Shown here: positions 1-17,506 of the stretch, in pieces
Position numbering within the stretch: the stretch's first letter is position 1
How the letters are laid out: every line of letters starts with the position of its first letter
Source of the DNA: a virus
IMG/VR virus record: IMGVR_UViG_3300032323_001710
Span: 1 to 21,203 of that record
Strand: one strand, 5' to 3'
Length of the DNA: 21,203 bases
The notes under the pieces: generated by a model
Database searches by the model: none
The model's input: the letters and a program-made list of their open reading frames with translations, nothing else
Told to the model about the DNA's origin: nothing
Program-made: the position numbers and the translations under genes

Positions 1-60
1 CCAACACCTACTTCCACCCCAACACCTACGCCAACTCCTACCCCTACACCCACTCCCACA
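1..60 (+). repeat. Pro-Thr dipeptide coding repeat
   Basis: About ten PT dipeptide codon pairs in a row, one with a Ser substitution. The codons vary (CCA/CCT/CCC with ACA/ACT/ACC/ACG), so the repeat is kept at protein level and is not simple DNA slippage. Followed by PAPLPP. Confidence 0.8.
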
Positions 61-363
61 CCAGCCCCACTTCCACCGTGCCCTGGAACCGTTACAAACC
101 CAACATCGGCAACATGTTCTGAACTTGGACTTACCACACTTGGTAATTGGACCCAGTACTCTGGAGTTCCAACTGGATGGTCTTGCTGTGGATCTGCTCC
201 ATCTCCATCATTCCCATTTTTCCCATTTTTCCCATTCTTCCCATTTTTCCCACCTTCATTTACACCTGCACCAACTCCAGCACCTACATCTGCTCCAACA
301 CCTGCACCTACATCTGCACCTCCATCATTCCCATGGTTCCCATTTGATGCAACTAGAAGATAA
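1..363 (+). CDS. Pro/Thr-rich low-complexity protein, C-terminal end (5' partial)
   Basis: Frame 1 is open from the first base to a TAA at 361-363, giving 120 residues with no start, so the gene begins upstream. Three parts are visible. Residues 1-26 are Pro-Thr alternation. About 45 residues of ordinary sequence follow, with four cysteines (one CPG, one C in a TSATC context, one CC pair). The end has four FPF units, then a PAPTSAPT-type repeat, finishing in FPWFPFDATRR. Pro/Thr-rich stretches of this kind act as extended, often glycosylated linkers or stalks. At the end of a phage structural block the likely role is a tail fibre or virion decoration protein, but no domain proves it. The hydroxylase and glycosyltransferase genes just downstream make it a candidate substrate. 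The reading frame is certain; the function is inferred. Confidence 0.75.
   Translation, partial: PTPTSTPTPTPTPTPTPTPTPAPLPPCPGTVTNPTSATCSELGLTTLGNWTQYSGVPTGWSCCGSAPSPSFPFFPFFPFFPFFPPSFTPAPTPAPTSAPTPAPTSAPPSFPWFPFDATRR
211..255 (+). repeat. 9-bp tandem repeat (TTCCCATTT) coding Phe-Pro-Phe
   Basis: Four consecutive 9-bp units starting at 211, 220, 229 and 238, differing by one base (ATTC in the third), then a degenerate fifth unit coding FPP. Each unit codes FPF. Unlike the PT tract, the units are nearly identical in DNA, which suggests recent expansion by slippage. Confidence 0.85.
262..321 (+). repeat. TPAP / TSAP coding repeat
   Basis: Twenty codons made of TPAP and TSAP units (TPAP TPAP TSAP TPAP TSAP), near the C-terminus of the Pro-rich protein. 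Coding tandem repeat with a few synonymous differences. Confidence 0.75.
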
Positions 364-407: not shown

Positions 408-641
408 ATGAATGATAACAATAATAAACCTGTTAAGCCATGGGATTTATTAAAGCCAACTACTCAATATGTATCTGATGATATTTCTAAACAAAGGTAT
501 GACCTATGCAAATCCTGTCCAGAGTTTATAAAATTAACTGCTCAATGTAAAAAATGTGGATGCTTAATGAAAATAAAAACCACCATGTCTATGGCTTTTT
601 GTCCAATTGGAAAGTGGGGTATAGAAAATGTGGAACTATGA
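408..641 (+). CDS. Small Cys-rich zinc-binding protein (DUF6171-like)
   Basis: A 77-residue protein with an SD (AAGGGG at 393-398) about nine bases before ATG 408. After an N-terminal Lys/Pro-rich arm, six cysteines are arranged as C34-x2-C37-P, C47-x2-C50-G-C52 and C65-P, with a closing IGKW. This spacing suggests a zinc-binding fold. I recall the pattern from small proteins in cyanophage and other environmental phage genomes, often near tail and oxygenase genes; no function is known to me. It overlaps the oxygenase gene by 14 bases, so the two are probably translated together. Its presence at the head of the modification operon could mean an accessory or substrate-binding role, but that is a guess. 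Confidence 0.8.
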   Translation: MNDNNNKPVKPWDLLKPTTQYVSDDISKQRYDLCKSCPEFIKLTAQCKKCGCLMKIKTTMSMAFCPIGKWGIENVEL

Positions 642-1236
642 AGAATTGGCACCAGGAATAGCAAGTTATGAAAATGTTATGGAGGATCCAAAAACATTTA
701 TATCAGATGTTGAAAGCCTTGTAGGTATCCACAACTTAGCATGGCATGACGCTAACCAAACCAATGGTGGAAAATATGAAGAGCCAAGCAATAAGCCATC
801 AATTAGGGATTGTAAAGTAATGTCAATTCCACCATATGATTCAGACCCCGAACTTGCTCAAAAAATTCCAGGGGCTCAACTTGCTATACATTTGCATCTA
901 AATAACTCTCTTTATCCAGCAATAAATGATTATAGAAATAGGTATCTTGCTGGACAATGGGATAAAGCCGAAGGATGGCAACTATTAAAATATGGAAGTG
1001 GCAATCACTTTGTAAATCATTTTGATGATTCAAGACCATTTCCCAGAACACTTTCAATGAGTTTTTATCTGAATGATGACTATGAAGGTGGAGAAATAGA
1101 ATTTGGAAGATTTAATCTTAAGATTAAGCCTAAAGCAAATCAAATGATTCTTTTTCCATCTAATTATATATATAACCATACAGTGCATCCAGTAAAAACT
1201 GGAACAAGATATGCTGTCGTAGCCTGGTGGGATTAA
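628..1236 (+). CDS. 2OG-Fe(II) oxygenase, prolyl-4-hydroxylase-like
   Basis: A 202-residue cupin-fold dioxygenase. The Fe(II) triad is visible as H131-x-D133 (in HFVNHFDD) and distal H184. The 2-oxoglutarate-binding arginine R194 lies ten residues after H184 in the typical H-x-V-x-P-V-x2-G-x-R-Y arrangement. An EGGEIEF strand between them is also typical. Members of this superfamily hydroxylate prolines or other residues using 2OG, O2 and Fe(II), and phages often carry them. The start ATG 628 lies inside the preceding gene, and the stop TAA directly abuts the GTG of the radical SAM gene. Because a hydroxyproline-type glycosyltransferase follows and a Pro-rich protein precedes it, peptidyl-proline hydroxylation is the favoured role. 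Fold and catalysis are well supported; the substrate is inferred. Confidence 0.9.
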   Translation: MWNYEELAPGIASYENVMEDPKTFISDVESLVGIHNLAWHDANQTNGGKYEEPSNKPSIRDCKVMSIPPYDSDPELAQKIPGAQLAIHLHLNNSLYPAINDYRNRYLAGQWDKAEGWQLLKYGSGNHFVNHFDDSRPFPRTLSMSFYLNDDYEGGEIEFGRFNLKIKPKANQMILFPSNYIYNHTVHPVKTGTRYAVVAWWD

Positions 1237-2205
1237 GTGTCGCAAATTCAATTAGTTCAATTAGATCCAAATGGATTGTGTAATTCTGGGTGCTGGTTTT
1301 GTCCAGTAGCATATAAGCCTAACCCAGAGGTAGCAAGAAAAGATATGCCAATTGAAACAATTAAAGACATAATTATACAATTAAAAGGTGGAATGGGGGA
1401 TTTTGTTTCATCTACCTTTAACTTTATTTATACAGCACACTACAATGAGGTACTGCTGTACAAATATTTTGAAGAATTTTTGTCTTTATTGCGTGAGTTT
1501 AAATTAAGAACTATGGTTCTGACTAACGGCATACCACTATCAAAAGAAAAAACAGATCTAATATATAACTATTTAGATGTTGTTGACTTAATTAATTTTA
1601 ATGTTCCATCCGCAGACTCTGCTACATGGTCAATGATGACTAATAAAAACGAAAAGATTCATAACAAAGTTATGGGCAATATTTTATATGCAACTACAAA
1701 ACTACCACTGGACATGCTTTCAATTCAGGTAAATGGTATAGATGAAATGTCTTTGCCAGAAAATGGTGGCTGGATGAAGCCTCTTAAAAATATGCCAAAT
1801 ATCAATATGTCTATTCAAAATGGAGATTTAAAAATAGCACTTAATAAATTTAAAGAACTTTTCCCAGGGGTTAGGGTATTTAGTAATTCTGGACTAGTAG
1901 ACAGGGCTGGATTTCTTGATAAAGCAGAAGTTATGACAAATGAACCTGCAATAAGTAGATACAATAAAAAAGGTGATAATGTTATTGGATGCTCTAACAT
2001 GGGGGATAGGACAAAGACATGGATACACATAAATGCTAATGGAGATGTTTTTATATGTTGTAATGACTATGACTTTGATACAGTGTTTGGAAATATTAAT
2101 AGTTCTACTTTAAAAGAAATATGGGAAAGCGATGATAGGCAAAAAATGATTGATTATTCTTTTAAAACACTGTGTACAACCTGCTCAAATGCGATATGGG
2201 GATGA
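1237..2205 (+). CDS. Radical SAM protein with SPASM-like C-terminal domain
   Basis: A 322-residue protein starting at GTG 1237, immediately after the oxygenase stop. C15-x3-C19-x2-C22 (CNSGCWFCP) is the canonical [4Fe-4S] motif binding S-adenosylmethionine. A TIM-barrel-like middle follows (MVLTNG strand, NFNVPSAD). The C-terminal part has C252, the C274-C275 pair after HINANGDVFI, a GNI-x5-LKEIW segment, and C313-x2-C316. This matches SPASM/twitch domains, which hold auxiliary Fe-S clusters in peptide-modifying enzymes, although only five cysteines are seen, so perhaps one auxiliary cluster. SPASM enzymes make thioether links, epimerise residues or oxidise peptides. The target here is unknown; a virion protein is plausible from context. 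Class assignment is firm, reaction unknown. Confidence 0.88.
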   Translation: MSQIQLVQLDPNGLCNSGCWFCPVAYKPNPEVARKDMPIETIKDIIIQLKGGMGDFVSSTFNFIYTAHYNEVLLYKYFEEFLSLLREFKLRTMVLTNGIPLSKEKTDLIYNYLDVVDLINFNVPSADSATWSMMTNKNEKIHNKVMGNILYATTKLPLDMLSIQVNGIDEMSLPENGGWMKPLKNMPNINMSIQNGDLKIALNKFKELFPGVRVFSNSGLVDRAGFLDKAEVMTNEPAISRYNKKGDNVIGCSNMGDRTKTWIHINANGDVFICCNDYDFDTVFGNINSSTLKEIWESDDRQKMIDYSFKTLCTTCSNAIWG

Positions 2206-2207
2206 TA

Positions 2208-3116
2208 ATGAAAAGCATTTTTGTACAAATCACATCCTATCATGATTTTGAATTAGAAAAAACTATTTTAGATGCTATAAATAAATCATCTGGAATAAAT
2301 CAAATTAACTTTGGCATACACTCTATTTTTTATAAAGATAATCTAATTGGCATACCAAGTTTGCCAAATATTAAATCAGTTATTAGTAGAGCACCAGAAA
2401 ATATTGGAATGGGGCGTGGTAGAGCCTTGGCTCATCAGTTTTATTCAGGTGAAGATTATTATTTACAAATAGATTCTCATAGCAGATTTGATAAAAATTG
2501 GGATAGTTATTTAATTAATTTAGTTGATCACTACAAAAGTATTGGAATAAAAAAACCACTAATTACAAATTACCCTAAGTTATACTGGTACGAAGGTGAC
2601 AAAGAAACTGTTAGGCCAATAGAAGATCCAGTAACACATTTTTATTGGAAAGATAGACAAAGGTTTAAAGCAACAAGAACCCCTATGCAGGGTACATACT
2701 GTCCTGCAGATTTTCCTACTAGATCAATCAGTGTATCAGGAGGATCCATCTTTGTTGAGGGAAAGTTTATGGAGCCAAATGAATTAATTTTTGCTGATGG
2801 AGAAGAAATACTTATGGCAGCAAGAGCATATACTATGGGGTACGATTTAGTTGTTCCAACTAAACAGTTTATGTATCATCTATATTGGGAAAATGATAAG
2901 GATAATAAGAGAAGGCAAGTATATCCTGATTTTCCAGAACTCTCTGCTTCATTAAATCAAACATCTATGGATGAGATAGTTAACATTTTAACTAATGGTT
3001 TAGTTGGAGATTTTAGATTAGGTAATGAGAGAACATTAAAAGAATATGGAGAATATTGTGGTCTTGATTTTAACTTAGGCACAATAATACAATACGGTCC
3101 AGAAGTAATACAATAA
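2208..3116 (+). CDS. GlcNAc-type glycosyltransferase, GT60/Skp1-Gnt1-like
   Basis: A 302-residue protein. I chose ATG 2208 because GGGG at 2198-2201 sits six bases upstream; ATG 2202, overlapping the previous TGA, is the alternative. Features: an N-terminal beta strand (SIFVQITSYHD), a GRGRALAH segment, then YYLQIDSHSRF with D89-S90-H91 as the metal/nucleotide-sugar DxH motif, followed by NWD. Later come SISVSGGSIF and FADGEEILMAARAYTMGYD. From memory this order matches the Glyco_tran_GlcNAc family (CAZy GT60), whose best-known member, Dictyostelium Gnt1, adds GlcNAc to a hydroxyproline of Skp1. A glycosyltransferase is near certain; the hydroxyproline acceptor rests on the family recall and on the adjacent hydroxylase. 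Last gene of the cassette. Confidence 0.85.
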   Translation: MKSIFVQITSYHDFELEKTILDAINKSSGINQINFGIHSIFYKDNLIGIPSLPNIKSVISRAPENIGMGRGRALAHQFYSGEDYYLQIDSHSRFDKNWDSYLINLVDHYKSIGIKKPLITNYPKLYWYEGDKETVRPIEDPVTHFYWKDRQRFKATRTPMQGTYCPADFPTRSISVSGGSIFVEGKFMEPNELIFADGEEILMAARAYTMGYDLVVPTKQFMYHLYWENDKDNKRRQVYPDFPELSASLNQTSMDEIVNILTNGLVGDFRLGNERTLKEYGEYCGLDFNLGTIIQYGPEVIQ

Positions 3117-3127
3117 ACCTTGAATTA

Positions 3128-3136
3128 TGATATACT
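3128..3136 (+). promoter_or_regulatory. Extended -10 promoter (TGATATACT)
   Basis: TGATATACT lies in the 35-base gap between the glycosyltransferase stop and ATG 3152. It is identical, base for base, to the element at 12960. No -35 box. The mRNA leader would be only about ten bases, just enough for the GGGAG SD. Confidence 0.6.
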
Positions 3137-3151
3137 TGATTGGGAGAAAAC

Positions 3152-3382
3152 ATGTCGTATGAATTAAGTAAAGAAGAAAAGTCTAATATTATTAACCAAC
3201 ATTTAAAGAATTTGGAATATAATAAATACACCTTAAGAATATCCCTTTTAGAAATGAATTCTGGATTTATTGTAAAAAAAGAATCTATACAGGATATAGA
3301 GGATCAAATTCTTTCAATTAATTCAAAACAAAAGGCTTTGCTAAAAGAACTAAATAGTTTAGAGGAGAAAGACAATGGATAA
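3152..3382 (+). CDS. Small coiled-coil protein, function unknown
   Basis: A 76-residue, Lys/Glu-rich protein. ATG 3152 is preferred over the in-frame TTG 3140 because GGGAG at 3142-3146 is spaced five bases from it. The sequence is almost wholly helical, with an LxxxLxxL-type pattern and a C-terminal coiled coil (KQKALLKELNSLEEK). No enzymatic motif. It overlaps the next gene by eight bases; both encode short charged helices, so they might form a hetero-oligomer. I do not recognise a family. Confidence 0.75.
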   Translation: MSYELSKEEKSNIINQHLKNLEYNKYTLRISLLEMNSGFIVKKESIQDIEDQILSINSKQKALLKELNSLEEKDNG

Positions 3383-3554
3383 GGTAGAACTAATCGTAAC
3401 TGCACTACAGCAACGAATTGGAGAGTTGGTTTCTAATTATGAAACACAGATTGCTGTACTTAGAGCAGAACTAACAGAATTGTCACAAAGCATTAAAGAC
3501 AAAGAAGAAGCAATACAAAACTATAACAAGAGTTTAGAAGAAAAGATTCAGTAG
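3375..3554 (+). CDS. 59-residue coiled-coil protein
   Basis: Starts at ATG 3375, inside the end of the previous gene, with SD GAGGAGAAAG directly upstream, and stops at TAG 3552-3554. The product is one continuous predicted amphipathic helix (TALQQRIGELVSNYE and AVLRAELTELSQSIKDKEE) with heptad spacing of Leu/Ile, so a parallel coiled coil is likely. It is short enough to be missed by a 60-codon cut-off. Good SD, tight overlap and coding-like amphipathicity support it. Function unknown. Confidence 0.75.
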   Translation: MDKVELIVTALQQRIGELVSNYETQIAVLRAELTELSQSIKDKEEAIQNYNKSLEEKIQ

Positions 3555-3561
3555 GAATACA

Positions 3562-3753
3562 ATGTTAAATTGCAAAAGGTGTAGCGGTAGAATTTTTATT
3601 GACAGGCAGTACACCACTACTGGTCACATAGAGATATTTTGTGTTATGTGTGGATTTAGAAAATTCTATCATCCACCTACTGAAAGTCAGGAAGGCAAAT
3701 GGCTACTACTAAAGGAAAAATCCAGAGCGAAGAATACAATAACCAGCCTGTAG
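3562..3753 (+). CDS. Small zinc-ribbon protein
   Basis: A 63-residue protein with an SD (AGGA at 3553-3556) before ATG 3562. Two knuckles, C-x2-C near residue 4 (CKRC) and C-x2-C near residue 27 (CVMC), with about 20 residues between them, form a classic zinc ribbon. The tail is Lys-rich. Such proteins bind nucleic acid or mediate protein contacts. The next gene starts inside it and overlaps by 55 bases, an unusually long overlap here, so the last 18 residues are double-coded. No specific role can be assigned. Confidence 0.75.
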   Translation: MLNCKRCSGRIFIDRQYTTTGHIEIFCVMCGFRKFYHPPTESQEGKWLLLKEKSRAKNTITSL

Positions 3754-4241
3754 TTAAGGGCAAGGTTAAGGTATGGTTTCTTAATGGTGACTTGGTAAGA
3801 GTTCACCATAGGTCAAGATCTACTGGAATGGTTACTTTTTATAATATTACTAAAGATAGGCTAGAAACATGCTTGCTTTCTGATTTTAAAAAGAATCGAG
3901 AAAGAGCGTATAGTGTAGCAGAGACTGCAATACTTGTCAATAGACACAGAAAGTATATTCCAACTTTAATTAAACGAGGAGTCATTCCTCCACCAATAGG
4001 TGCACAGTTAAATGGAGAAAGGCACTGGCAGGTAAGAGCATACTATTCAGAATCACAGGTAAGAGAAATTCGTGCTATACTTGCAAGTATACATATTGGA
4101 CAACCAAGAAAAGACAAATTAATAACTAATAACATGACTCCTACAAGCCAAGAATTGACACGGCGAATGGGAGACGGTATACTTACATATACAAAGACCG
4201 AGGATGGAAGATATATTCCAGTCTGGTCCGAAAGTATTTAA
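3699..4241 (+). CDS. HTH DNA-binding protein, MerR/excisionase-like
   Basis: A 180-residue protein with AGGAAGG at 3689-3695 upstream of ATG 3699. Residues about 20-60 form a small beta-rich region. Residues about 66-115 contain a winged-helix pattern of the MerR/excisionase type: RAYSVAETAILVNRHRKYI (first helices), TLIKRGVIPPP, a GERHWQV wing, and YYSESQVREIR. This resembles phage regulators that recognise DNA with an HTH plus wing. The remainder is polar. It lies between small accessory genes and the replication block, so a switch regulator or replication-initiator role is plausible but unproven. Confidence 0.7.
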   Translation: MATTKGKIQSEEYNNQPVVKGKVKVWFLNGDLVRVHHRSRSTGMVTFYNITKDRLETCLLSDFKKNRERAYSVAETAILVNRHRKYIPTLIKRGVIPPPIGAQLNGERHWQVRAYYSESQVREIRAILASIHIGQPRKDKLITNNMTPTSQELTRRMGDGILTYTKTEDGRYIPVWSESI

Positions 4242-4259
4242 AATAGGAATGGGTGGGGA

Positions 4260-4466
4260 ATGGAAAACGATTCAACTAAGGTAAATGTAACACTAGGCTA
4301 TACACTTAATCTAGGCAATTTTCAGTCGCTTAGACTTGATCTTGGCGTAGTTGATAGCAAGCGTGATGGTGAAACAACAAATGAGGCTTTTGAAAGAGTT
4401 TACAAGTTTGTTGAAGATAAACTCACTGAGAAGATTAACGAAGCAAAAGAAGAAATCAACGAATAA
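4260..4466 (+). CDS. Small conserved-looking phage protein, unknown
   Basis: A 68-residue acidic protein; GGGTGGGG just before ATG 4260 serves as a strong SD. It begins with a beta-strand-rich part (KVNVTLGYTLNLG, SLRLDLGVV), then GETTNEAFERVYKFVEDKL and an acidic helix ending in EEINE. I have seen similar strand-plus-helix small proteins in phage replication regions but cannot name a family. Its stop TAA overlaps the next ATG by one base (TAATG), so it is coupled to the replication genes. Confidence 0.75.
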   Translation: MENDSTKVNVTLGYTLNLGNFQSLRLDLGVVDSKRDGETTNEAFERVYKFVEDKLTEKINEAKEEINE

Positions 4467-4774
4467 TGGCTGAACGCAAAGACCGAATGGCTTTGCTCAG
4501 TAGATTTAACAAGTTGTATCTGCAAAGATATGAGCAAAAGTCTAACATGAACCTCAATGTTGAGCAGTGGTCTGCTGATGCATTGGTAGAGTCTTATGGA
4601 ATTTCTCAGTGTTATGATGTTCTAGACTACTATTTTTCTATTGCTCAAGAACCAACATGGAATTATTTTGCTTATAATATGGAAAAAATTATTAATGGTA
4701 AACTTGAAGTAGAGCAAGATTATAGAGAACGCAAAGAGCGCAGGGCATTGGCTAAGGAGTGGTTAAGTGAATAA
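4466..4774 (+). CDS. Possible helicase loader
   Basis: A 102-residue, mostly helical charged protein. Starts at ATG 4466, sharing one base with the previous stop, and ends eight bases inside the DnaB-like helicase gene. No catalytic motif. Conserved-looking aromatics (WSADALVESYG, VLDYYF, PTWNYFAYN) and a basic/acidic tail resemble small phage proteins found just upstream of replicative helicases, some of which are loaders. The assignment rests only on position, size and helical content; sequence identity to a known loader could not be tested. Confidence 0.6.
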   Translation: MAERKDRMALLSRFNKLYLQRYEQKSNMNLNVEQWSADALVESYGISQCYDVLDYYFSIAQEPTWNYFAYNMEKIINGKLEVEQDYRERKERRALAKEWLSE

Positions 4775-5990
4775 TACAGAAGCAAAGGTAATATCTGCAG
4801 TACTTGAAGACAAGCAGATACATGTATTATTGCAAGCCAATGTAGAAACATTGCTCAGAACCCATAACGATATCTGGAACTTTATTCGTTTATACTCAGA
4901 AAACAATCAGTGTCTTCCGCCAGCAGATCTTGTTAGAGAAAAGTTTAGAGACTTTGAGCCAGTTGCTGGAGTTGGTTCTACAAAGCATCATCTTGAAGAA
5001 CTTCAAACAGAGTATCTTAACGATAGTCTAAAAGATATTCTTCGTAATGCAGCAGGTGAAGTTCAAGGTGGTAATGGTTTATCAGCGCTAGATCAACTAA
5101 TCACCAAAACATCTGAACTAAAAAAGAACACTGCAGCAATTCGTGATATCGATGCTACAGACCTAGAAGATGCTGTTGCATATTTTGAAAGAGTTAAGAG
5201 ACAGAATGAACTTGGCGCTGTTGGAATTAAGACTGGATTACCAGGGTTTGATAACTATCTACCTGCAGGAATTATGCCAGGTCAACTTGGAGTATTCCTA
5301 GCCTATCCTGGAATTGGTAAGTCATGGATGGCACTATACTTTGCAGTTCAAGCATGGAAACAAGGCAAGTCTCCAATGATTATTTCTCTTGAAATGTCAG
5401 AAACTGAAGTTCGTAACCGTGTGTTTGCAATCATGGGTGAAGGCCTATGGTCCCATCGCAAGTTGTCCAATGGTGAAGTTGAAATTGACATGCTTCGTAA
5501 ATGGCATGCAAATAAAGTGCAGGGTCGTCCAGAGTTCCACATCATATCTAATGACTCTGGTGGTGAGGTAACCCCTTCAGTTATTCGTGGAAAGATTGAC
5601 CAATATAAGCCAGACTTTGTTGTGGTTGACTATCTTCAATTGATGAGTCCAAATCAAAGGGCTGATAATGAAACGGTAAAGATGAAGAATCTTTCTCGTG
5701 AACTTAAACTAATGTCTATTAGCGAAGAAGTACCTATTATCGCTATCTCATCTGCTACACCTGATGATGTAAAAGACTTAAGCACACCACCTACACTTGG
5801 TCAAACAGCATGGTCTAGACAGATTTCATACGATGCTGACTGGCTATTAGCACTTGGTCGTGGTACAAATAGCGATATTATTGAATGTGTATTTAGAAAG
5901 AACCGTAATGGTTTTATGGGAGACTTCTTAGTTCAAGTTGACTTTGATAAAGGCTACTACAGATATAAGGATTTTGAAGATGGCAAGTAA
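4767..5990 (+). CDS. DnaB-like replicative DNA helicase
   Basis: A 407-residue SF4 helicase that would unwind DNA at the phage fork. Starts at GTG 4767 with AAGGAG at 4754-4759 ending seven bases upstream. The N-terminal ~100 residues form a reduced helical domain. The RecA-like core has Walker A AYPGIGKS at 179-186, a SLEMSE segment (H1a-type), Walker B FVVVDYLQL with D288, an AISSATPDD sensor-like stretch and AWSRQISYDADWLL. The C-terminus ends in the strand VQVDFDKGYY. Somewhat shorter than E. coli DnaB (471). It overlaps the primase gene by 11 bases, matching the usual phage helicase-primase pair. Confidence 0.93.
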   Translation: MNNTEAKVISAVLEDKQIHVLLQANVETLLRTHNDIWNFIRLYSENNQCLPPADLVREKFRDFEPVAGVGSTKHHLEELQTEYLNDSLKDILRNAAGEVQGGNGLSALDQLITKTSELKKNTAAIRDIDATDLEDAVAYFERVKRQNELGAVGIKTGLPGFDNYLPAGIMPGQLGVFLAYPGIGKSWMALYFAVQAWKQGKSPMIISLEMSETEVRNRVFAIMGEGLWSHRKLSNGEVEIDMLRKWHANKVQGRPEFHIISNDSGGEVTPSVIRGKIDQYKPDFVVVDYLQLMSPNQRADNETVKMKNLSRELKLMSISEEVPIIAISSATPDDVKDLSTPPTLGQTAWSRQISYDADWLLALGRGTNSDIIECVFRKNRNGFMGDFLVQVDFDKGYYRYKDFEDGK

Positions 5991-6903
5991 CATTTATAGC
6001 GAAGAACAGATACGCAGAGTCCTTAATGGCGCTGGTGTTGAGATTGAAGCAGAGTTTGGTAATAACTTTATTGTATTCTGTCCGTATCATAATAATACAA
6101 GAACTCCTGCAGGTGAAGTTTCTAATGAGAGCGGTTTGTTCTTTTGTTTTGGATGTCAAACTACCAAGGGTCTTGAAGAGTTTATTATGCACATGACTGG
6201 CAGAACCTACTTTGAAACTGTTAGATACATTAAAAGCAAGCAGACAGAGACTAATATTGAAAATGTAGTAAACAAGGCTATGTATGCAGCACCAGATTTT
6301 GTACAATATGATGAATTACTTATTAAAAGATTAAACAATCAGGCACTTGAATCACCAAGAGCAATGAGATATTTTGAAGGAAGAAGGATTACTCGTGACT
6401 CAGTTGTTAAGTTTAATCTTGGTTTTTCAGAGAAGCAGGATTCGGTAACTATACCAATGCAGTCTCCAGATGGAATGACGATTGGTTTTGTTGCTAGAAC
6501 AATTGAGGGTAAAGAGTTTAAGAATACACCAGGACTACCTAAAGGCAAGATCCTTTTTAATTTGCATAGGGTGAAAAGTTCAAATACAGTGTATGTCGTA
6601 GAGTCATCTTTTGATGCAATACGACTAGATCAAGTAGGTTTCCCAGCAGTTGCAACACTGGGTGCTAATGTGTCTATATCACAAGTTAGACTATTAGAAA
6701 AGTACTTTCCAAACATTGTACTTGTTGCAGACAATGATGAGGCTGGCAGCATTATGAAAGATAAGTTAATTGAAAAACTTGGTTCTGCTGTTAGTGTTAT
6801 TCAACTAGATAAAAAATATAAAGACATTGGTGATATGGATGATGATGCAATCAGGGGTATTGAATTCCAGTTTGACAAATCTATATCATCTATGCTAAAC
6901 TAA
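5980..6903 (+). CDS. DnaG-type DNA primase
   Basis: A 307-residue primase that would lay RNA primers for the phage polymerase. ATG 5980 is preferred over an upstream TTG at 5938 because it is preceded by AAGGA and restores the family's usual N-terminus. A CHC2 zinc finger is visible: C34, H37, C56, C59 (CPYH and CFGC). The TOPRIM domain has E208 (VVESSFDAIR) and D251-x-D253 (VADNDEAG). It lacks a C-terminal helicase-interaction domain of normal length, so contact with the DnaB-like helicase must be made differently. Compact phage primases of this size are common. Confidence 0.93.
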   Translation: MASNIYSEEQIRRVLNGAGVEIEAEFGNNFIVFCPYHNNTRTPAGEVSNESGLFFCFGCQTTKGLEEFIMHMTGRTYFETVRYIKSKQTETNIENVVNKAMYAAPDFVQYDELLIKRLNNQALESPRAMRYFEGRRITRDSVVKFNLGFSEKQDSVTIPMQSPDGMTIGFVARTIEGKEFKNTPGLPKGKILFNLHRVKSSNTVYVVESSFDAIRLDQVGFPAVATLGANVSISQVRLLEKYFPNIVLVADNDEAGSIMKDKLIEKLGSAVSVIQLDKKYKDIGDMDDDAIRGIEFQFDKSISSMLN

Positions 6904-6926
6904 TAAAAACAACAGAAGGAGATAAC

Positions 6927-7583
6927 ATGAGCGTAGTAAAGGGATTAAAAGCAATCAACGCCCTGCTCGATAAGCCAAAGTATGACGAAAATGCACCAAA
7001 GGTAAAGTGGCTTAAACTTGCCGATGGTCAATCAGTAAAGATTCGCTTTATTGAAGAACTAGATGAAGACTCTGCAAACTATAATGCAGACCGTGGTCTT
7101 GCACTAGTTGTTAAGGAACACACAAATCCAAAGGACTACAAGCGTAAGGCTGTAGATACAATGGAATCAGAGGGCCGTGACTGGGCCGAAGAAATGCACC
7201 GCAAGGATCCAAAGGCTGGCTGGAGAGCCCGTCTTCGCTTCTATTGCAATGTACTTGTAGATGATGGCATTGAAGCGCCATATGTTGCAATCTGGTCAAT
7301 GGGTATCAGCAAGCAATCATCATTTAATACTATTCGTGAGTATGCTCTCGAAACAGGAAGCATCTCAAATGTTCAATGGAAACTAAAGCGTAATGGTCAG
7401 GGAACTGAAACTAATTACACACTTATTCCATCTGCACCAGATAAGGAACCATTTGATTGGTCTGGTGTTCAACCATTCCCATTGGAACTTGCACTTAAGA
7501 AGATTCCATATGCGGAGCAAGAAGCCTTTTATCTAGGCTTTGACGGTCCTACAACAACTTCTGCTACCAACACAGATTGGTAA
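6927..7583 (+). CDS. Single-stranded DNA-binding protein (phage type)
   Basis: A 218-residue protein with a perfect AGAAGGAGAT SD six bases before ATG 6927, which suggests high expression. The N-terminus is a basic/helical arm, then KWLKLADGQSVKIRF, a strand pattern of OB-fold phage SSBs. The middle contains RARLRFYCNVLVDDG and PYVAIWSMG strands, and the C-terminus is Thr/Asn-rich ending TDW. No T4 gp32-like zinc site is seen. Its place between primase and polymerase and its expected abundance support ssDNA coating. Assignment is by fold pattern and context. Confidence 0.7.
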   Translation: MSVVKGLKAINALLDKPKYDENAPKVKWLKLADGQSVKIRFIEELDEDSANYNADRGLALVVKEHTNPKDYKRKAVDTMESEGRDWAEEMHRKDPKAGWRARLRFYCNVLVDDGIEAPYVAIWSMGISKQSSFNTIREYALETGSISNVQWKLKRNGQGTETNYTLIPSAPDKEPFDWSGVQPFPLELALKKIPYAEQEAFYLGFDGPTTTSATNTDW

Positions 7584-7584
7584 T

Positions 7585-10500
7585 ATGAATTACGTAGGTC
7601 TACACATCCATACACACTATTCATTATTTGATGGTGTTGCTACTCCAGAAGAATATATTGACCGAGCAGTTGAACTTGGTATGCCAGCATTGGCTATCAC
7701 AGATCACGGAACCTTATCTGGGCATCGGGAACTGTACCGAATTGCAAAAGCAAAGGGTGTTAAACCTATTCTTGGCGTAGAAGGATATTTTTGTGCTGAT
7801 AGATTTGATAAGAGGCCGAAGGCAGAACGCACAGAGCCAACAGATCTAATCTATAACCACATTATCCTTCTCGCTAAGAATCAACTTGGTTTAGAGAATC
7901 TAAACAAAATTAATGAAATCGCTTGGACTGAAGGATATTTTAATAAGCCACGCTTTGACTTTGAAGTTCTTGAAAAGTACTCAGAAGGCATTATTGTTTT
8001 ATCTGGATGTCTAAGCGGTATCATTGCAAAAGCATTAGAGCACGGAGAATATGCACAGGCCAAAAAGCATATTGAATGGTTTAGCCGTGTATTTAAAGAT
8101 GATTTTTATATGGAACTCATGCCACACAATGGCGCAGAAGTTAACAAGCAACTTGCAGAACTTGCAGATGAATTTAAAATACAGACAGTTGTTACTCCAG
8201 ACTGTCACCATGTTGATCCATCACAAAAAGAAATTCAAGAGTTTAAACTATTGATGAACTCTCATGCCAAAGTAGAAAAGACTGCTACATACGATAAGTC
8301 AACAAAGCATGATGATATGATGAAGCGACTTGACTACCTATATGGCGCAGATAGACAAATGTCATTTAATAAGTTTGACATTCATTTACTATCATATGAA
8401 GAGATGAAGCAAGCCATGGAATCGCAGGGTATTGTAAGAGAAGATATGTACATTAACTCTATAGACATTGCTGATAAGGTAGAAGACTATGAGATTAAAG
8501 ATGGTCTAAACCTATTACCAGTACAATATAAGAACCCAGATAAAGAGTTAAAATCTCTTGCATTAGAAGGTTTGAAGGCTCGTGGTTTGGACAATGATGA
8601 AACCTATTTGGCTCGTCTTGATGAAGAGTTAGAGATTATTAAAGCAAAGAAGTTTGGACCATACTTCTTGGTTGTTCAAAGCATGATTGCCTGGGCAAAG
8701 AAAGAAGGGATCATGGTAGGTCCAGGCCGTGGATCTTCAGCAGGATCACTTCTTTGCTACACGCTAGGTATTACAGACATTGATCCTATAAAGTACGGAT
8801 TGCTGTTCTTCCGTTTTATTAATCCAGAGCGCAATGACTTCCCAGACATTGATACAGATATTCAAGACTCACGCCGTGAAGAAGTTAAAGATTATCTTGT
8901 TAGACAGTATAGGCATGTTGCTTCTATTGCTACATTCTTAGAGTTTACTGGTAAGGGTATTGTGCGAGATGTATCAAGAGTCCTAAACATTCCTTTGTCA
9001 GATGTAAACAAGGTTCTTAAAACAGTAGATACATGGGATGATTTTTGCACATCAAAATCAACAAAAGAATTTAGAGAAAAATATCCAGAGGTAGAGGTTT
9101 ATGGGGAGCAATTACGTGGTCGAATTCGGGGTACTGGTATTCACGCTGCAGGAGTTGTTACTAGTAAAGATCCAATCTTTAGGTTTGCGCCGATGGAGAC
9201 TCGCTCTGCTACTGGATCTGACGATAGGATTCCAGTGGTTGCAGTCGATATGGAAGAGGCTGAAAGAATTGGTTTAATTAAGATTGATGCCCTTGGTCTA
9301 AAAACACTAAGCGTAATCAAAGACACATTAGAGATGGTTAAGGAAAATCACTTTAAAGATATTAATCTATTAGAGATTGACCTTGAAGATGCAAATGTAT
9401 ACGAGATGTTGTCTAGCGGTTTTACAAAGGGTGTGTTTCAGTGCGAAGCAACACCTTATACAAACTTGCTGATTAAGATGGGTGTAAAAAACCTTAATGA
9501 GTTGGCTGCCTCAAATGCTTTGGTTAGACCAGGGGCTATGAACACAATTGGTAAAGATTACATTGCTCGCAAACACGGAAAGCAAAATGTGTCTTATATC
9601 CATCAGATTATGAAAGAGTTTACAGGAGACACTTATGGTTGCGTTCTTTACCAGGAACAGGTTATGCAAGCATGCGTACACCTTGGCGGTATGTCCATGT
9701 CGGAAGCAGATAAAGTTAGAAAGATCATTGGAAAGAAAAAAGATGCTAAAGAATTTGATGAGTTCAAAGATAGGTTCATCAGTGGTGCTTCTAAGTTTAT
9801 TTCCCCTAATGATGCTCTTGATCTTTGGCAGGACTTTGAAGCGCATGCTGGGTATTCGTTCAACAAGTCGCATGCCGTTGCTTACTCTACTGTCTCGTAC
9901 TGGACAGCGTGGCTCAAATACTACTACCCACTAGAGTTTATGTACTCTCTATTGAAAAATGAAAAGGATAAAGATGGGCGAACTGATTATCTTATTGAGG
10001 CAAAAAGAATGGGCATTCCTGTTAAACTACCTCACATTAACGATTCGGATAAAGATTTTAAAATTGAGGGTAAGGGTATTCGGTTTGGACTCAGTGCTAT
10101 CAAGTACATATCTGACACAATTGCAGAAAGATATATCGCAGCAAGGCCATTTAGATCTTACAAAGAACTTGAAGAGTTTACATTCACAAAAGGAAATGGA
10201 GTAAACTCTCGTGCACTGCAGGCCTTAAGATCTATTGGAGCAGCAACATTTCCAGATAATCCTAGAAATGATAGTGAGATTAAAGAAAACCTATATGAAT
10301 ATTTAAATCTTCCAGAATTCAATATCACAATACCTTCGCACTACTATGCATTTATTAACGATATTGAAGATTTTGAAGAGAAAGGCTCATTTATATTAAT
10401 GGGCATGGTAAAATCTATTAAACGAGGAACAGGGTGGTCAAGAGTTGAAATTTTGGACAAAACTGGGAGCATCGGTATATTTGATGATGAAGGTACGACC

Positions 10501-10857
10501 ATTGAGACTGGTCGCAGTTATCTTATTCTTGCAAGTGACAATAGGATTGTGTCTACAATTCCTGTTGATGAAATAAAAAATTCTAGCAATGCGCTGGTTA
10601 AGTTTTTAAGTTACAAGCAATTACCATTTAAAGATGAAGAGATGTTTGTAATATCATTTAAGCCAAGACTAACTAAGGCTGGCAAAAAGATGGCAACTCT
10701 TACTCTTGCAGATACGACAAGAGATTTACATTCAATTACTGTATTTCCTACAGCGTTTTCTAAAGCATATATGCACATAGAAGAAGGCAAGGCATACAAG
10801 TTTAGTTTTGGTAAAACAAAAGATGGAACAAGAACACTGGAGGATATAAATGTTTGA
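7585..10857 (+). CDS. dnaE: DNA polymerase III alpha subunit (DnaE-type)
   Basis: A 1090-residue replicative polymerase. ATG 7585, one base after the SSB stop, gives the canonical N-terminus; an upstream in-frame TTG at 7540 would only add residues overlapping the SSB. Its SD is weak, so translation is probably coupled. The PHP domain shows all nine likely metal ligands: H7, H9, D40, H41, E66, H92, C142, D206, H208. The palm has GPGRGSSAGS and PDIDTDI (D421, D423), with the third aspartate D568 in IKIDALGL. The C-terminus holds a helix-hairpin-helix-like stretch (GNGVNSRALQALRSIG) and an OB fold (SFILMGMVKS). No separate exonuclease is seen, so the PHP domain may proofread, as reported for mycobacterial DnaE1. 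Confidence 0.97.
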   Translation: MNYVGLHIHTHYSLFDGVATPEEYIDRAVELGMPALAITDHGTLSGHRELYRIAKAKGVKPILGVEGYFCADRFDKRPKAERTEPTDLIYNHIILLAKNQLGLENLNKINEIAWTEGYFNKPRFDFEVLEKYSEGIIVLSGCLSGIIAKALEHGEYAQAKKHIEWFSRVFKDDFYMELMPHNGAEVNKQLAELADEFKIQTVVTPDCHHVDPSQKEIQEFKLLMNSHAKVEKTATYDKSTKHDDMMKRLDYLYGADRQMSFNKFDIHLLSYEEMKQAMESQGIVREDMYINSIDIADKVEDYEIKDGLNLLPVQYKNPDKELKSLALEGLKARGLDNDETYLARLDEELEIIKAKKFGPYFLVVQSMIAWAKKEGIMVGPGRGSSAGSLLCYTLGITDIDPIKYGLLFFRFINPERNDFPDIDTDIQDSRREEVKDYLVRQYRHVASIATFLEFTGKGIVRDVSRVLNIPLSDVNKVLKTVDTWDDFCTSKSTKEFREKYPEVEVYGEQLRGRIRGTGIHAAGVVTSKDPIFRFAPMETRSATGSDDRIPVVAVDMEEAERIGLIKIDALGLKTLSVIKDTLEMVKENHFKDINLLEIDLEDANVYEMLSSGFTKGVFQCEATPYTNLLIKMGVKNLNELAASNALVRPGAMNTIGKDYIARKHGKQNVSYIHQIMKEFTGDTYGCVLYQEQVMQACVHLGGMSMSEADKVRKIIGKKKDAKEFDEFKDRFISGASKFISPNDALDLWQDFEAHAGYSFNKSHAVAYSTVSYWTAWLKYYYPLEFMYSLLKNEKDKDGRTDYLIEAKRMGIPVKLPHINDSDKDFKIEGKGIRFGLSAIKYISDTIAERYIAARPFRSYKELEEFTFTKGNGVNSRALQALRSIGAATFPDNPRNDSEIKENLYEYLNLPEFNITIPSHYYAFINDIEDFEEKGSFILMGMVKSIKRGTGWSRVEILDKTGSIGIFDDEGTTIETGRSYLILASDNRIVSTIPVDEIKNSSNALVKFLSYKQLPFKDEEMFVISFKPRLTKAGKKMATLTLADTTRDLHSITVFPTAFSKAYMHIEEGKAYKFSFGKTKDGTRTLEDINV

Positions 10858-11182
10858 TCAGTTAGCAATTGACCTGCACAAGATTGCAGTAGAAAAAGGA
10901 TTTTGGGGAAGCCCAGAAGATCATGATGCAATTAATGATATTTTTATTGCAAAGCAGTGCATGATGATTGTCTCAGAAGTAACTGAGGTTATGGAGGCTG
11001 TTCGTAAAGATAAGGGTGGAGAAGAAATTGCTAAAGAGTTTGCAGACATTATTATTCGCACACTAGACCTTTATGCGGGAATGGTTGAAGCAGGGTATAC
11101 TAGAGAATCACTTGACTATATTCTAAAACAAAAAGCGGAATTTAATAAGACTAGACCAGAGAAGCATGGAGTACGATTTTAA
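10850..11182 (+). CDS. MazG-like nucleotide pyrophosphohydrolase
   Basis: A 110-residue all-helical protein with SD GGAGG spaced six bases before ATG 10850 and overlapping the polymerase stop. The metal motif is E43-x2-E46 followed by E63-x2-D66 (SEVTEVMEA and EFADIIIR), the EExxE/ExxD pattern of MazG/dUTPase-like enzymes. The family hydrolyses (d)NTPs to monophosphates; in phages it is proposed to shape nucleotide pools or lower (p)ppGpp. Being next to the polymerase favours a nucleotide-pool role. Substrate unknown. Confidence 0.85.
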   Translation: MFDQLAIDLHKIAVEKGFWGSPEDHDAINDIFIAKQCMMIVSEVTEVMEAVRKDKGGEEIAKEFADIIIRTLDLYAGMVEAGYTRESLDYILKQKAEFNKTRPEKHGVRF

Positions 11183-12198
11183 TGTCAGTAACAATGGAAG
11201 AAGTATTAGCACAACTTAACCCTAAGTTGCGTAAGACTATTATGGTAGGAGACTCAGTTCCACCTACAGAATATGCAGCAACCCCTAGTTTTGGTTTAAA
11301 CCGTGCACTATCAGGTGGTTTACCTTATGGTCGCCAAGTACTTATATGGGGCTCTAAATCGTCTGCAAAGTCCTCTCTGTGCCTTCAGATGATTGGTCTA
11401 GCACAAAAGGAAGGCAAGATCTGTGCATGGATTGATTCAGAAATGTCATATGATAAGGCTTGGGCAGAAAGACTTGGCGTTGACTCATCTAAGTTAATTT
11501 ATTCGCAGGCTAGAACAATTAATGAGATGGTTGATGTAGGTACAAACCTAATCAATGCAGGTGTTGATATTGTAGTTGTTGATTCAATTACTTCCTTGCT
11601 TCCTGCAATTTATTTTGAAAAAGATTCAGATGAACTCAAGCAACTAGAAAATACAAAGCAAATTGGTGCGGAGTCTCGTGACTTTAGTAACGCATGGAAG
11701 ATGATTAACTATGCAAACAATAAAATTAAACCAACACTTTTTGTTTTAATTTCTCAGTCACGTAATAATATTAATGCAATGTACACAAGTCAGCAACCTA
11801 CTGGAGGACAGGCTACTAAATTTTACTCGTCAACAGTTATTAAATTGTTCTCGTCAGAATCAGACAATCAGGCCATTAAGGGCAAGATTAAGATTGGTGA
11901 TAAGTTGATTGAAGAAAAAATTGGAAGAAAGATTCGTTGGGAACTGCAGTTCTCTAAAACTTCTCCAGGATTTCAATCAGGCGAGTATGACTTTTACTTT
12001 AGAGGGGATGAGGTTGGAATCGACTCTATTGGAGATCTTGTAGATACAGCAGAGGCATCAGGTCTTGTTAATAGAACTGGTGCATGGTATCAACTAGATG
12101 ATGGAACAAAGGTTCAGGGAAGAGATGGCTTTATCAATCGTGTTAAAGAAGACCTTGATCTACAAGAAAGTTTAAAGAGTAAGTTGGCTAATGGCTAA
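11182..12198 (+). CDS. recA: RecA-like recombinase
   Basis: A 338-residue strand-exchange ATPase for recombination-dependent replication or repair. ATG 11182 overlaps the preceding stop (TAATG), with GGAG about nine bases upstream. The core shows P-loop GSKSSAKSS (57-65), the catalytic glutamate region CAWIDSEMSYD, Walker B DIVVVDSIT, and an L2/base-contact region ISQSRNNINAMY then PTGGQATKFYSS. Compared with bacterial RecA (GPESSGKTT) the second P-loop glycine is alanine (A62), an unusual change. The C-terminus is short and lacks a long acidic tail. RecA-like proteins of this type are common in actinophages. Confidence 0.92.
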   Translation: MSVTMEEVLAQLNPKLRKTIMVGDSVPPTEYAATPSFGLNRALSGGLPYGRQVLIWGSKSSAKSSLCLQMIGLAQKEGKICAWIDSEMSYDKAWAERLGVDSSKLIYSQARTINEMVDVGTNLINAGVDIVVVDSITSLLPAIYFEKDSDELKQLENTKQIGAESRDFSNAWKMINYANNKIKPTLFVLISQSRNNINAMYTSQQPTGGQATKFYSSTVIKLFSSESDNQAIKGKIKIGDKLIEEKIGRKIRWELQFSKTSPGFQSGEYDFYFRGDEVGIDSIGDLVDTAEASGLVNRTGAWYQLDDGTKVQGRDGFINRVKEDLDLQESLKSKLANG

Positions 12199-12376
12199 TA
12201 AAGACTTTATTGTTTTTAATGGAAAACTTACATGCAAGAAATGTAGTGAGCATGTTGCATCTTTTAGATTTTGGCCAGAGTCAGGTGACACTACTTGGAT
12301 GTGTAGTCAAAAACATGTGAGCAAGGTTGAACTAGTACCAAGAAAAAAGAAAAAGGGTGATTTTGTTAATGAGTGA
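12191..12376 (+). CDS. Small zinc-finger protein
   Basis: A 61-residue protein overlapping the RecA stop by eight bases. C-x2-C (CKKC, residues 15-18) pairs with C-x3-H (CSQKH) about 20 residues later, so one zinc site is likely. The middle is beta-rich with two Trp, and the tail is a Lys/Arg run (PRKKKKG) suited to nucleic-acid contact. No strong SD, so coupling to recA is likely. Function unknown; the context suggests recombination or DNA binding. Confidence 0.7.
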   Translation: MANKDFIVFNGKLTCKKCSEHVASFRFWPESGDTTWMCSQKHVSKVELVPRKKKKGDFVNE

Positions 12377-12653
12377 GAGATCAGAATCTAAAAGACTTGG
12401 TGCTAAACAACATAAAAATTCTGGTAGAAATAACACCAAGGGCGATGCCTCCTGGAATAATTTTGTTATTGATTTTAAAGAGTGCTCAAAATCATTTACT
12501 TTAAATCAAGATGTTTGGGCTAAAGCAGTTACAGATGCTCTTAAGAAAAGCATGGATCCAGCATTAGTAATTGTTTTAGGCGAGGGTACACAAAAGGTAA
12601 GGCTTGCTATAATTGAATTAGATATGTTAGAGCAGTTAGTAGAGGGGGAATAG
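12369..12653 (+). CDS. PD-(D/E)XK nuclease, Hjc-like resolvase candidate
   Basis: A 94-residue protein. I prefer ATG 12369, with AAGGG 11 bases upstream; GTG 12357 is in frame but sits on that SD. Motif pattern: E6 in the first helix, then GA-x7-GRNNTKGD with D26, and V-I-D35-F-K37, which is the E...D...(D/E)xK set of Holliday-junction-resolvase-type nucleases. A KSFTLNQDVWAKA helix and ALVIVLGE strand follow as in that fold. It would cut branched recombination intermediates. It lies directly after recA, consistent with the role. Only motifs support it. Confidence 0.7.
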   Translation: MSERSESKRLGAKQHKNSGRNNTKGDASWNNFVIDFKECSKSFTLNQDVWAKAVTDALKKSMDPALVIVLGEGTQKVRLAIIELDMLEQLVEGE

Positions 12654-12654
12654 T

Positions 12655-12957
12655 ATGACTGATACAACAACATTAGAACAGGTTAATGGATTAGTAGAGA
12701 TAGCAGAGTTTATGGATGATGAAGAGTTAACTGCTGCTTTATCAATGATTGCTAAGTTAATCATTAAACCAGACATTCCTATACAGGTTGCAACAATTGA
12801 GATTGTTAGACTACAGGCTATTGCCAGCAAACTAGCGCTAAAGGCTACTTGGATGGCTAATGTAGACAAGAACAACAGGGCAAAGAAGAACATATATTAC
12901 ACTGCAGCAGAGGCAGTAAATAATCTGGTGTCAGCACTTAAATATATTATGCGCTAA
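12655..12957 (+). CDS. Helical phage protein, function unknown
   Basis: A 100-residue, almost entirely helical protein with a GGGGGAA SD before ATG 12655. Contains FMDDEELTAALSMIAKLI, PDIPIQVATIEIVRLQA, and a KNIYYTAAEAVNNLVSALK end. I recall similar small proteins beside recombination genes in actinophages but know no function. A recombination mediator role (UvsY-like) would fit the location next to RecA and the nucleases, but nothing in the sequence demonstrates it. Confidence 0.75.
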   Translation: MTDTTTLEQVNGLVEIAEFMDDEELTAALSMIAKLIIKPDIPIQVATIEIVRLQAIASKLALKATWMANVDKNNRAKKNIYYTAAEAVNNLVSALKYIMR

Positions 12958-17490: not shown

Positions 17491-17506
17491 AATAACAAGG
17501 AGAAAG

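Follow-up and report, generated by a model that had tools for sequence, protein, structure and literature searches.

The locus described here raises the question of what a phage modifies with a prolyl-hydroxylase-like enzyme and a glycosyltransferase encoded close together. It lies at positions 408-3116 of the linear 21,203-base virus record IMGVR_UViG_3300032323_001710 of IMG/VR, from a phage called aquatic, and the whole of this record is referred to as the window. Four genes, encoding a Cys-rich protein of 77 amino acids (Cys77), a 2-oxoglutarate-Fe(II) (2OG) oxygenase, a radical SAM enzyme and a glycosyltransferase of family GT60, stand behind the end of a gene for a Pro/Thr-rich protein. 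An initial annotation had proposed that virion prolines are hydroxylated by the oxygenase and then glycosylated by the transferase. Comparison with contigs fetched from IMG/VR as relatives of the GT60, radical SAM, 2OG and Cys77 genes (loci numbered with an L) indicates that the four genes, by the mechanism outlined below, are probably a modification cassette matched to its substrate, the Pro/Thr-rich tail protein of the same phage.

The chemical steps and the benefit are proposed as follows. The 2OG enzyme would hydroxylate prolines in low-complexity Pro-rich tracts, and the GT60 enzyme would add a sugar, probably an alpha-linked N-acetylhexosamine (HexNAc), to hydroxyls of those tracts, on Thr/Ser and possibly on the new hydroxyprolines. 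The radical SAM enzyme may alter the protein or its sugar further, and Cys77, which occurs fused to GT60 in some loci and to the radical SAM enzyme in another, would have an accessory role. Hydroxylation and glycosylation would together yield a stiff stalk by which the receptor-binding end is shielded or displayed.

The substrate pairing of tail protein and enzymes is well supported by comparative evidence. In a first pass, gene content after Cys77 seemed to depend on the composition of the preceding protein. The refined test comprised 114 deduplicated viral loci anchored on Cys77, in which the richest stretch of 40 amino acids in the three upstream genes was scored as Pro-rich (at least 25% Pro) or Thr-rich (at least 35% Thr), and a 2OG gene, of the main family or of the 2OGb type described below, was counted when found within three genes downstream. 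The gene caller took the wrong frame for the Pro/Thr-rich open reading frame (ORF) of the window, and the window was left out of the refined statistics. A Pro-rich gene was present upstream in 53 of the 63 loci with 2OG and in 13 of the 51 loci without it (p=2.6e-10), so that the linkage of the oxygenase to Pro-rich, tail-linked proteins expected from the initial annotation held across phage contigs. A Thr-rich gene preceded 36 of 47 loci with GT60 as compared with 20 of 67 without (p=1.3e-6). When loci were compared in pairs with similar Cys77 proteins, p was 6e-7 for 2OG with Pro and 4e-5 for GT60 with Thr. Cross-associations were absent or negative, GT60 being negatively linked to Pro. As a background, 4.8% of the genes of at least 100 amino acids in these loci are as Pro-rich. 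The tracts beside 2OG genes contain PTPTPT, APTPV, VVPP, FFPPFF and PDPD repeats; those beside GT60 alone are TTTTTTAAP and poly-T.

The thresholds and the extension to 2OGb were set after looking at the data, and the loci fetched after the idea arose were therefore checked separately. In these the link between 2OG and Pro was found again (31/34 against 7/19, p=5e-5, and p=5e-3 when 2OG was defined as at the outset). When one locus was taken per cluster of homologous upstream genes (40% linkage, 15 clusters), the median p was 7e-3 for Pro and 4e-3 for Thr; with more clusters p was mostly smaller, the Pro link with 23 clusters giving 1.3e-2.

The Pro/Thr-rich ORF of the window contains 29% Pro and 20% Thr, with 40% Pro in its best window of 40 amino acids. 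It is made up of PT repeats, FPFF repeats and Cys-containing blocks, and shares short matching stretches with L003 (6107-7714). Downstream of the cassette are small genes and then a replication block (DnaB-type helicase, primase, DNA polymerase III alpha and RecA), followed by a terminase-like gene. The polymerase shares 56% identity with its counterpart in BillNye-type Streptomyces phages, in which genes for minor tail proteins are followed by small genes and then by those for helicase, primase, single-stranded DNA-binding protein and DnaE polymerase. From this order the Pro-rich ORF is predicted to close a tail module; an actinobacterium is the probable host.

Several observations weigh against the cassette as described. 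The upstream ORF is truncated, and its membership of the virion is deduced from its position and its relatives. Ten of the 63 loci with 2OG have no Pro-rich upstream gene in reach (several of these are truncated), and 13 of the 51 scored as lacking 2OG do have one, including L004 with a weak 2OG match in Pfam; the matching of enzyme and substrate is consequently not absolute. Among the fresh loci the link between GT60 and Thr was not significant (p=0.15, with only 10 GT60 loci), and the Cys77 gene tree gave only two supported independent contrasts for a phylogenetic test. In addition, 2OG enzymes are common in cyanophages, where they have been explained by DNA repair or by modulation of 2-oxoglutarate (PMC2984593, PMC3037559).

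The comparison of backbones and cassettes shows exchange of the locus. Genes at 3699-12957 of the window are 65-91% identical to those of L032, L039 and L187, the cassettes of which consist of Cys77 and a GT60 31-41% identical to that of the window, with neither 2OG nor radical SAM genes, and the upstream proteins of which differ from that of the window where visible. Conversely, positions 628-3116 are 66-72% identical to L003 and L068, in which a Pro/Thr-rich protein with PT repeats is encoded upstream and a sugar epimerase after GT60; in the stretches compared their backbone genes are distant or absent, except for an ORF of 59 amino acids (3375-3554). The boundary of the exchange lies near 3116-3550. 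Close relatives of the backbone with other cassettes argue for a swap of the module as a unit, and tail protein and enzymes thus appear to move between phage backbones together. Phage glycosyltransferases often modify host surface sugars, and the enzymes could instead act on a cell-wall polymer, a host protein or a sugar nucleotide, the position behind a tail gene being merely convenient for expression. The epimerases near the cassette in related phages would fit such host targets, but the enzymes present vary with the composition of the upstream protein, tail protein and enzymes are exchanged together and Cys77 occurs in fusions, which makes this explanation improbable.

The genes of the cassette are listed in Table 1. 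Their junctions are, in order, an overlap of 14 nucleotides, 0 nucleotides and 2 nucleotides, and a pattern scan found no promoter-like or terminator-like patterns above chance, from which a single operon is likely. An Rfam search gave zero matches. The start of the transferase is most likely the ATG at 2208; position 2172, given by the ORF lister, is an upstream GTG. The initial annotation had overlooked both the radical SAM gene and Cys77. The oxygenase and the transferase are linked, as it described, but are not adjacent, since the radical SAM gene is situated between them; likewise a Pro/Thr-rich end does precede the cassette, but with Cys77 intervening before the oxygenase.

Table 1. Genes of the modification cassette and the ORF upstream of it in the window.
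Feature	Position	Strand	Basis and remarks
Pro/Thr-rich protein, C-terminal part, candidate substrate	1..363	+	sequence, composition; cut by contig end
Cys77, Cys-rich zinc-ribbon-like ORF of 77 amino acids	408..641	+	phrog_13558; DUF6171-like below cut-off
2OG-Fe(II) oxygenase, prolyl-hydroxylase type, 202 amino acids	628..1236	+	PF13640, profile, fold
Radical SAM enzyme, C-terminal SPASM/twitch domain	1237..2205	+	PF04055, PF13186
GT60 glycosyltransferase	2208..3116	+	PF11397; DxH at 89-91, EE at 199-200

The oxygenase matches the family 2OG-FeII_Oxy_3 (E 3e-17, 63.8 bits against a cut-off of 27). Residues H131, D133, H184 and R194 are all exactly where the initial annotation had placed them; the first three are invariant in 45 relatives, and R194 is present in the window enzyme. 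The resemblance to prolyl 4-hydroxylases (P4H) noted there was also borne out, as the nearest solved relatives by both profile and fold are prolyl hydroxylases. A profile of 45 oxygenases, that of the window and 44 adjoining Cys77 elsewhere, gave as best match in the PDB the prolyl 4-hydroxylase of B. anthracis (2.5e-15), followed by human prolyl 3-hydroxylase 1 (P3H1; 1e-11). The AlphaFold model (predicted local distance difference test, pLDDT, 95) matched the folds of P. putida P4H, PHD2 and Chlamydomonas P4H with a (Ser-Pro)5 peptide, and also those of the PBCV-1 collagen hydroxylase and a Dictyostelium enzyme. Hydroxylation of prolines of the tail protein by this enzyme is thus likely. A role of the cassette in DNA modification or repair, with the oxygenase as an AlkB-like or hydroxymethylation-like enzyme and GT60 as a DNA glycosyltransferase, would agree with the proposal that P4H-domain genes of cyanophages are repair enzymes (PMC2984593) and with the GT60 gene of the Xanthomonas phage XacN1, situated by a carbamoyltransferase gene and near DNA polymerase. 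It is nevertheless highly improbable, as the closest relatives of the oxygenase are peptidyl-proline hydroxylases and not AlkB or TET, the locus is linked to the tail, the GT60 fold is of the polypeptide-transferase type and the enzymes are associated with amino acid composition.

Other oxygenases occur at the related loci. Proteins of about 190 amino acids, here termed 2OGb (L231:5095-5670, L239:8191-8745 and L212:7957-8547), have an invariant HxD...HW(R) and are found beside Pro-rich tail proteins; in L185 (5314-6459) 2OGb is fused to an ordinary 2OG domain. They have no Pfam match, and the comparison of their profile with that of the main family was not significant. On the basis of the invariant HxD...H and of a PHROG match to families labelled 'ferrochelatase', one of which (phrog_3531) is also matched by the window 2OG, they are likely a divergent family of 2OG oxygenases. 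In L134 (4249-7105) and L161 (4711-7568), 2OG oxygenases alternate with a phrog_7084-type family of about 240-258 amino acids behind FFPPFF-repeat proteins, and in L084 several 2OG genes stand in tandem from position 4332.

The transferase belongs to GT60, as had been suggested, and scores 113.7 bits with the GlcNAc (N-acetylglucosamine) profile of Pfam, PF11397, for which the cut-off is 21. The motifs read in it earlier were recovered in place, DSH at 89-91, SVSGGSIF at 175 and GEEILMAARAYTMGYD at 198. D89, H91, W98 and D99 are invariant in 54 relatives, with DxH in place of DxD. The model (pLDDT 94.5) has as its top fold matches in the PDB exclusively mucin-type polypeptide N-acetylgalactosaminyltransferases (E 1.6e-9, template modelling score 0.6). 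This agrees with the literature, in which GT60 is placed next to GT27, with a GT-A fold near that of GT27 and DxH replacing DxD (PMC7185993). The enzyme is a candidate retaining HexNAc transferase, with Thr/Ser, hydroxyproline or both as proposed acceptors in the tail protein.

Two versions of the cassette reading differ in the acceptor of GT60, and their probabilities overlap with that of the reading as a whole. In the first, a strict relay as for Skp1, the 2OG enzyme makes 4-hydroxyproline and a Gnt1-like GT60 adds GlcNAc there only; Gnt1 requires hydroxylated Skp1 (PMC6939170). The two enzyme classes are linked in the window, and 15 of 47 GT60 loci also have 2OG. In the tree of GT60, the window groups with L068, L003 and L004 in a clade with a support of 99, all members of which have a 2OG gene (that of L004 is weak and by Pfam only) together with Pro/Thr repeats. 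This clade is, however, nested among GT60s without 2OG. No strict dependence of GT60 on a partner hydroxylase was found, the other 32 of the 47 loci having no nearby 2OG gene, although one elsewhere in the genome is possible. GT60 generally therefore seems to work without hydroxyproline. The negative link to Pro, the fold closest to Ser/Thr transferases and the inclusion in GT60 of a trypanosome enzyme acting on Thr (PMC9472816) also speak against the relay. It is one of two live versions, but not the better supported one, and is rather unlikely.

In the second version the decorations are independent, 2OG acting on Pro only and GT60 on Thr/Ser only, with no shared intermediate. The separate links of 2OG to Pro and of GT60 to Thr and the occurrence of one enzyme without the other in most loci favour it, while the presence of both enzymes with mixed Pro/Thr tracts in the window's clade does not; its probability falls only a little short of even. 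Thr/Ser seems to be the likelier general acceptor of phage GT60, by analogy with the trypanosome enzyme, and hydroxyproline is a possible acceptor in the window's clade and in the bacterial fusions described below, by analogy with Gnt1. Of the two-step modification of virion prolines first proposed, hydroxylation remains likely, but hydroxyproline as the acceptor of GT60 is weakened by the loci without 2OG and by the link to Thr and not Pro.

In a separate clade of phage GT60s (L042:9998-10906 and its relatives L043-L051, L054 and L055) the neighbours are small genes, and Thr/Pro-rich proteins, Cys77 and 2OG are all lacking next to the transferase; these enzymes possibly act on another acceptor. 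Two copies of GT60 are present in L067 (8345-10912); together with the serial 2OG genes of L084 this suggests stepwise or multi-site modification.

Fusions join the parts of the cassette in several ways. Three loci (L168, L202 and L221) have Cys77 and GT60 as one protein, and in L086 Cys77 is joined to the radical SAM enzyme. On two proteobacterial contigs (L303:6799-8667 and L323:6725-8593) GT60 and a radical SAM/SPASM enzyme of the window's kind form a single chain of 622 amino acids; in L323 the Radical_SAM match alone is just under the Pfam cut-off. Bacterial proteins of 1170-1236 amino acids (L281:2300-5854, L304:412-4122 and L353:615-4127) combine a hydroxyproline-arabinosyltransferase domain (HPAT, PF23452) with GT60 and 2OG-FeII_Oxy_3, all above cut-off, and L352 (3585-7187) has the same layout with its domains recognised by our own profiles only. 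At all four loci a Pro/Thr-rich gene lies on the opposite strand within about two genes, and its products in L304 and L353 have a twin-arginine-like signal as judged by eye. These triple fusions are in favour of the strict relay and, by suggesting coupling in bacteria, against independent decorations. HPAT had no matches in 50 phage records, but as the control genomes were equally silent this does not establish its absence; none was found in the fetched loci by our own HPAT profile.

The radical SAM enzyme matches PF13186 (1.6e-12) and PF04055 (1.7e-9), both above cut-off. Its cysteines comprise CxxxCxxC as well as C252, C274/275, C313 and C316, and are invariant in 15 relatives. BtrN (1.4e-11) is the only solved relative of its profile at E<=1e-4, and from this likeness the step may perhaps be an alcohol oxidation. 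Against the named maturases of NCBIfam it scores far under the cut-off in every case, and isolated phages gave no match to it.

Cys77 is the conserved core of the locus, with six Cys invariant across 34 relatives; the match to phrog_13558 is at 4.8e-14. In isolated phages its homologues follow genes annotated as tail fibre (S-CBS2) or adhesin tip (S-SRM01) or precede putative fibre genes (Syn9); often they adjoin tail-fibre genes while no enzyme of the cassette is recognised there. In the Stenotrophomonas phage Moby it has no tail linkage. Cys77 alone is for these reasons not diagnostic of modification. In the cyanophage S-SRM01 (L274:3327-4784) an annotated tryptophan halogenase lies between the tail-fibre and adhesin-tip genes, immediately 5' of Cys77, and is perhaps a further tail-modifying enzyme.

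Among known systems, the Skp1 pathway of Dictyostelium and Toxoplasma (PhyA and Gnt1; PMC6939170) likewise pairs a 2OG enzyme of P4H type with a GT60 transferase. It differs in acting on one cytosolic proline of a ubiquitin-ligase subunit and not on low-complexity Pro/Thr tail tracts; the phage cassette adds a radical SAM enzyme and Cys77, and phage GT60s often occur without 2OG. The GT60 enzyme OGNT of Trypanosoma cruzi makes GlcNAc-alpha-O-Thr on mucins (PMC9472816), an acceptor similar to the poly-Thr proteins beside phage GT60, but is a protist Golgi enzyme that, unlike the cassette with 2OG, needs no hydroxylase. The hydroxyproline-rich glycoproteins of plants and algae, made by P4H and hydroxyproline-arabinosyl/galactosyl transferases, share the hydroxylase and SP/TP/AP/VP-type repeats, and the Chlamydomonas P4H is among the top fold matches of the window 2OG, but the transferases differ from GT60. 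In mycobacteriophage glycosylation we know of no hydroxylase or radical SAM enzyme. It resembles the cassette in that structural proteins are glycosylated by phage-encoded enzymes, at the C-termini of capsid and tail-tube proteins according to the account of Freeman 2023 in PMC12619734. The phage XacN1 is an isolated phage with a GT60 (ORF334; 25% identity, no tail linkage) and at least two virion glycoproteins (PMC5852040). Isolated phages gave no DNA match to the window and only three distant GT60s.

No prior description of a phage prolyl hydroxylase with GT60 was found in the open-access literature. To our knowledge there is no proven role for the very many phage 2OG-Fe(II) oxygenases (phrog_61), which have been attributed to DNA repair or nitrogen signalling, and the adjoining Pro-rich protein is a specific candidate substrate for a large set of them. 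Phage GT60s are tied to Thr-rich proteins, with enzyme and substrate seen to travel between genomes as a unit, and a bacterial single chain joining HPAT, GT60 and prolyl-hydroxylase domains has come to light. Modification of tail proteins in this way appears to be widespread among phages. A wider generalisation is offered tentatively, as somewhat doubtful: that interchangeable modules for stalk decoration are widely encoded by phages, each with enzymes suited to the Pro, the Thr or the mixed content of the low-complexity tracts of its tail protein, so that virions bear stalks resembling hydroxyproline-rich glycoproteins or mucins, with the fused HPAT-GT60-prolyl-hydroxylase as a bacterial counterpart. 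If this is true, hydroxyproline- and mucin-type glycoproteins would not be limited to eukaryotes and their viruses, hydroxyproline O-glycosylation would occur in bacteria and bacterial viruses, and the decoration would probably affect host range or virion protection.

Past the terminase-like gene, the window has two large ORFs (17453-19210 and 19343-21202) with signal-peptide-like starts and Ala-rich coiled-coil ends. They contain Big_1-like (below cut-off) or PA14 domains and are unusual in a phage.

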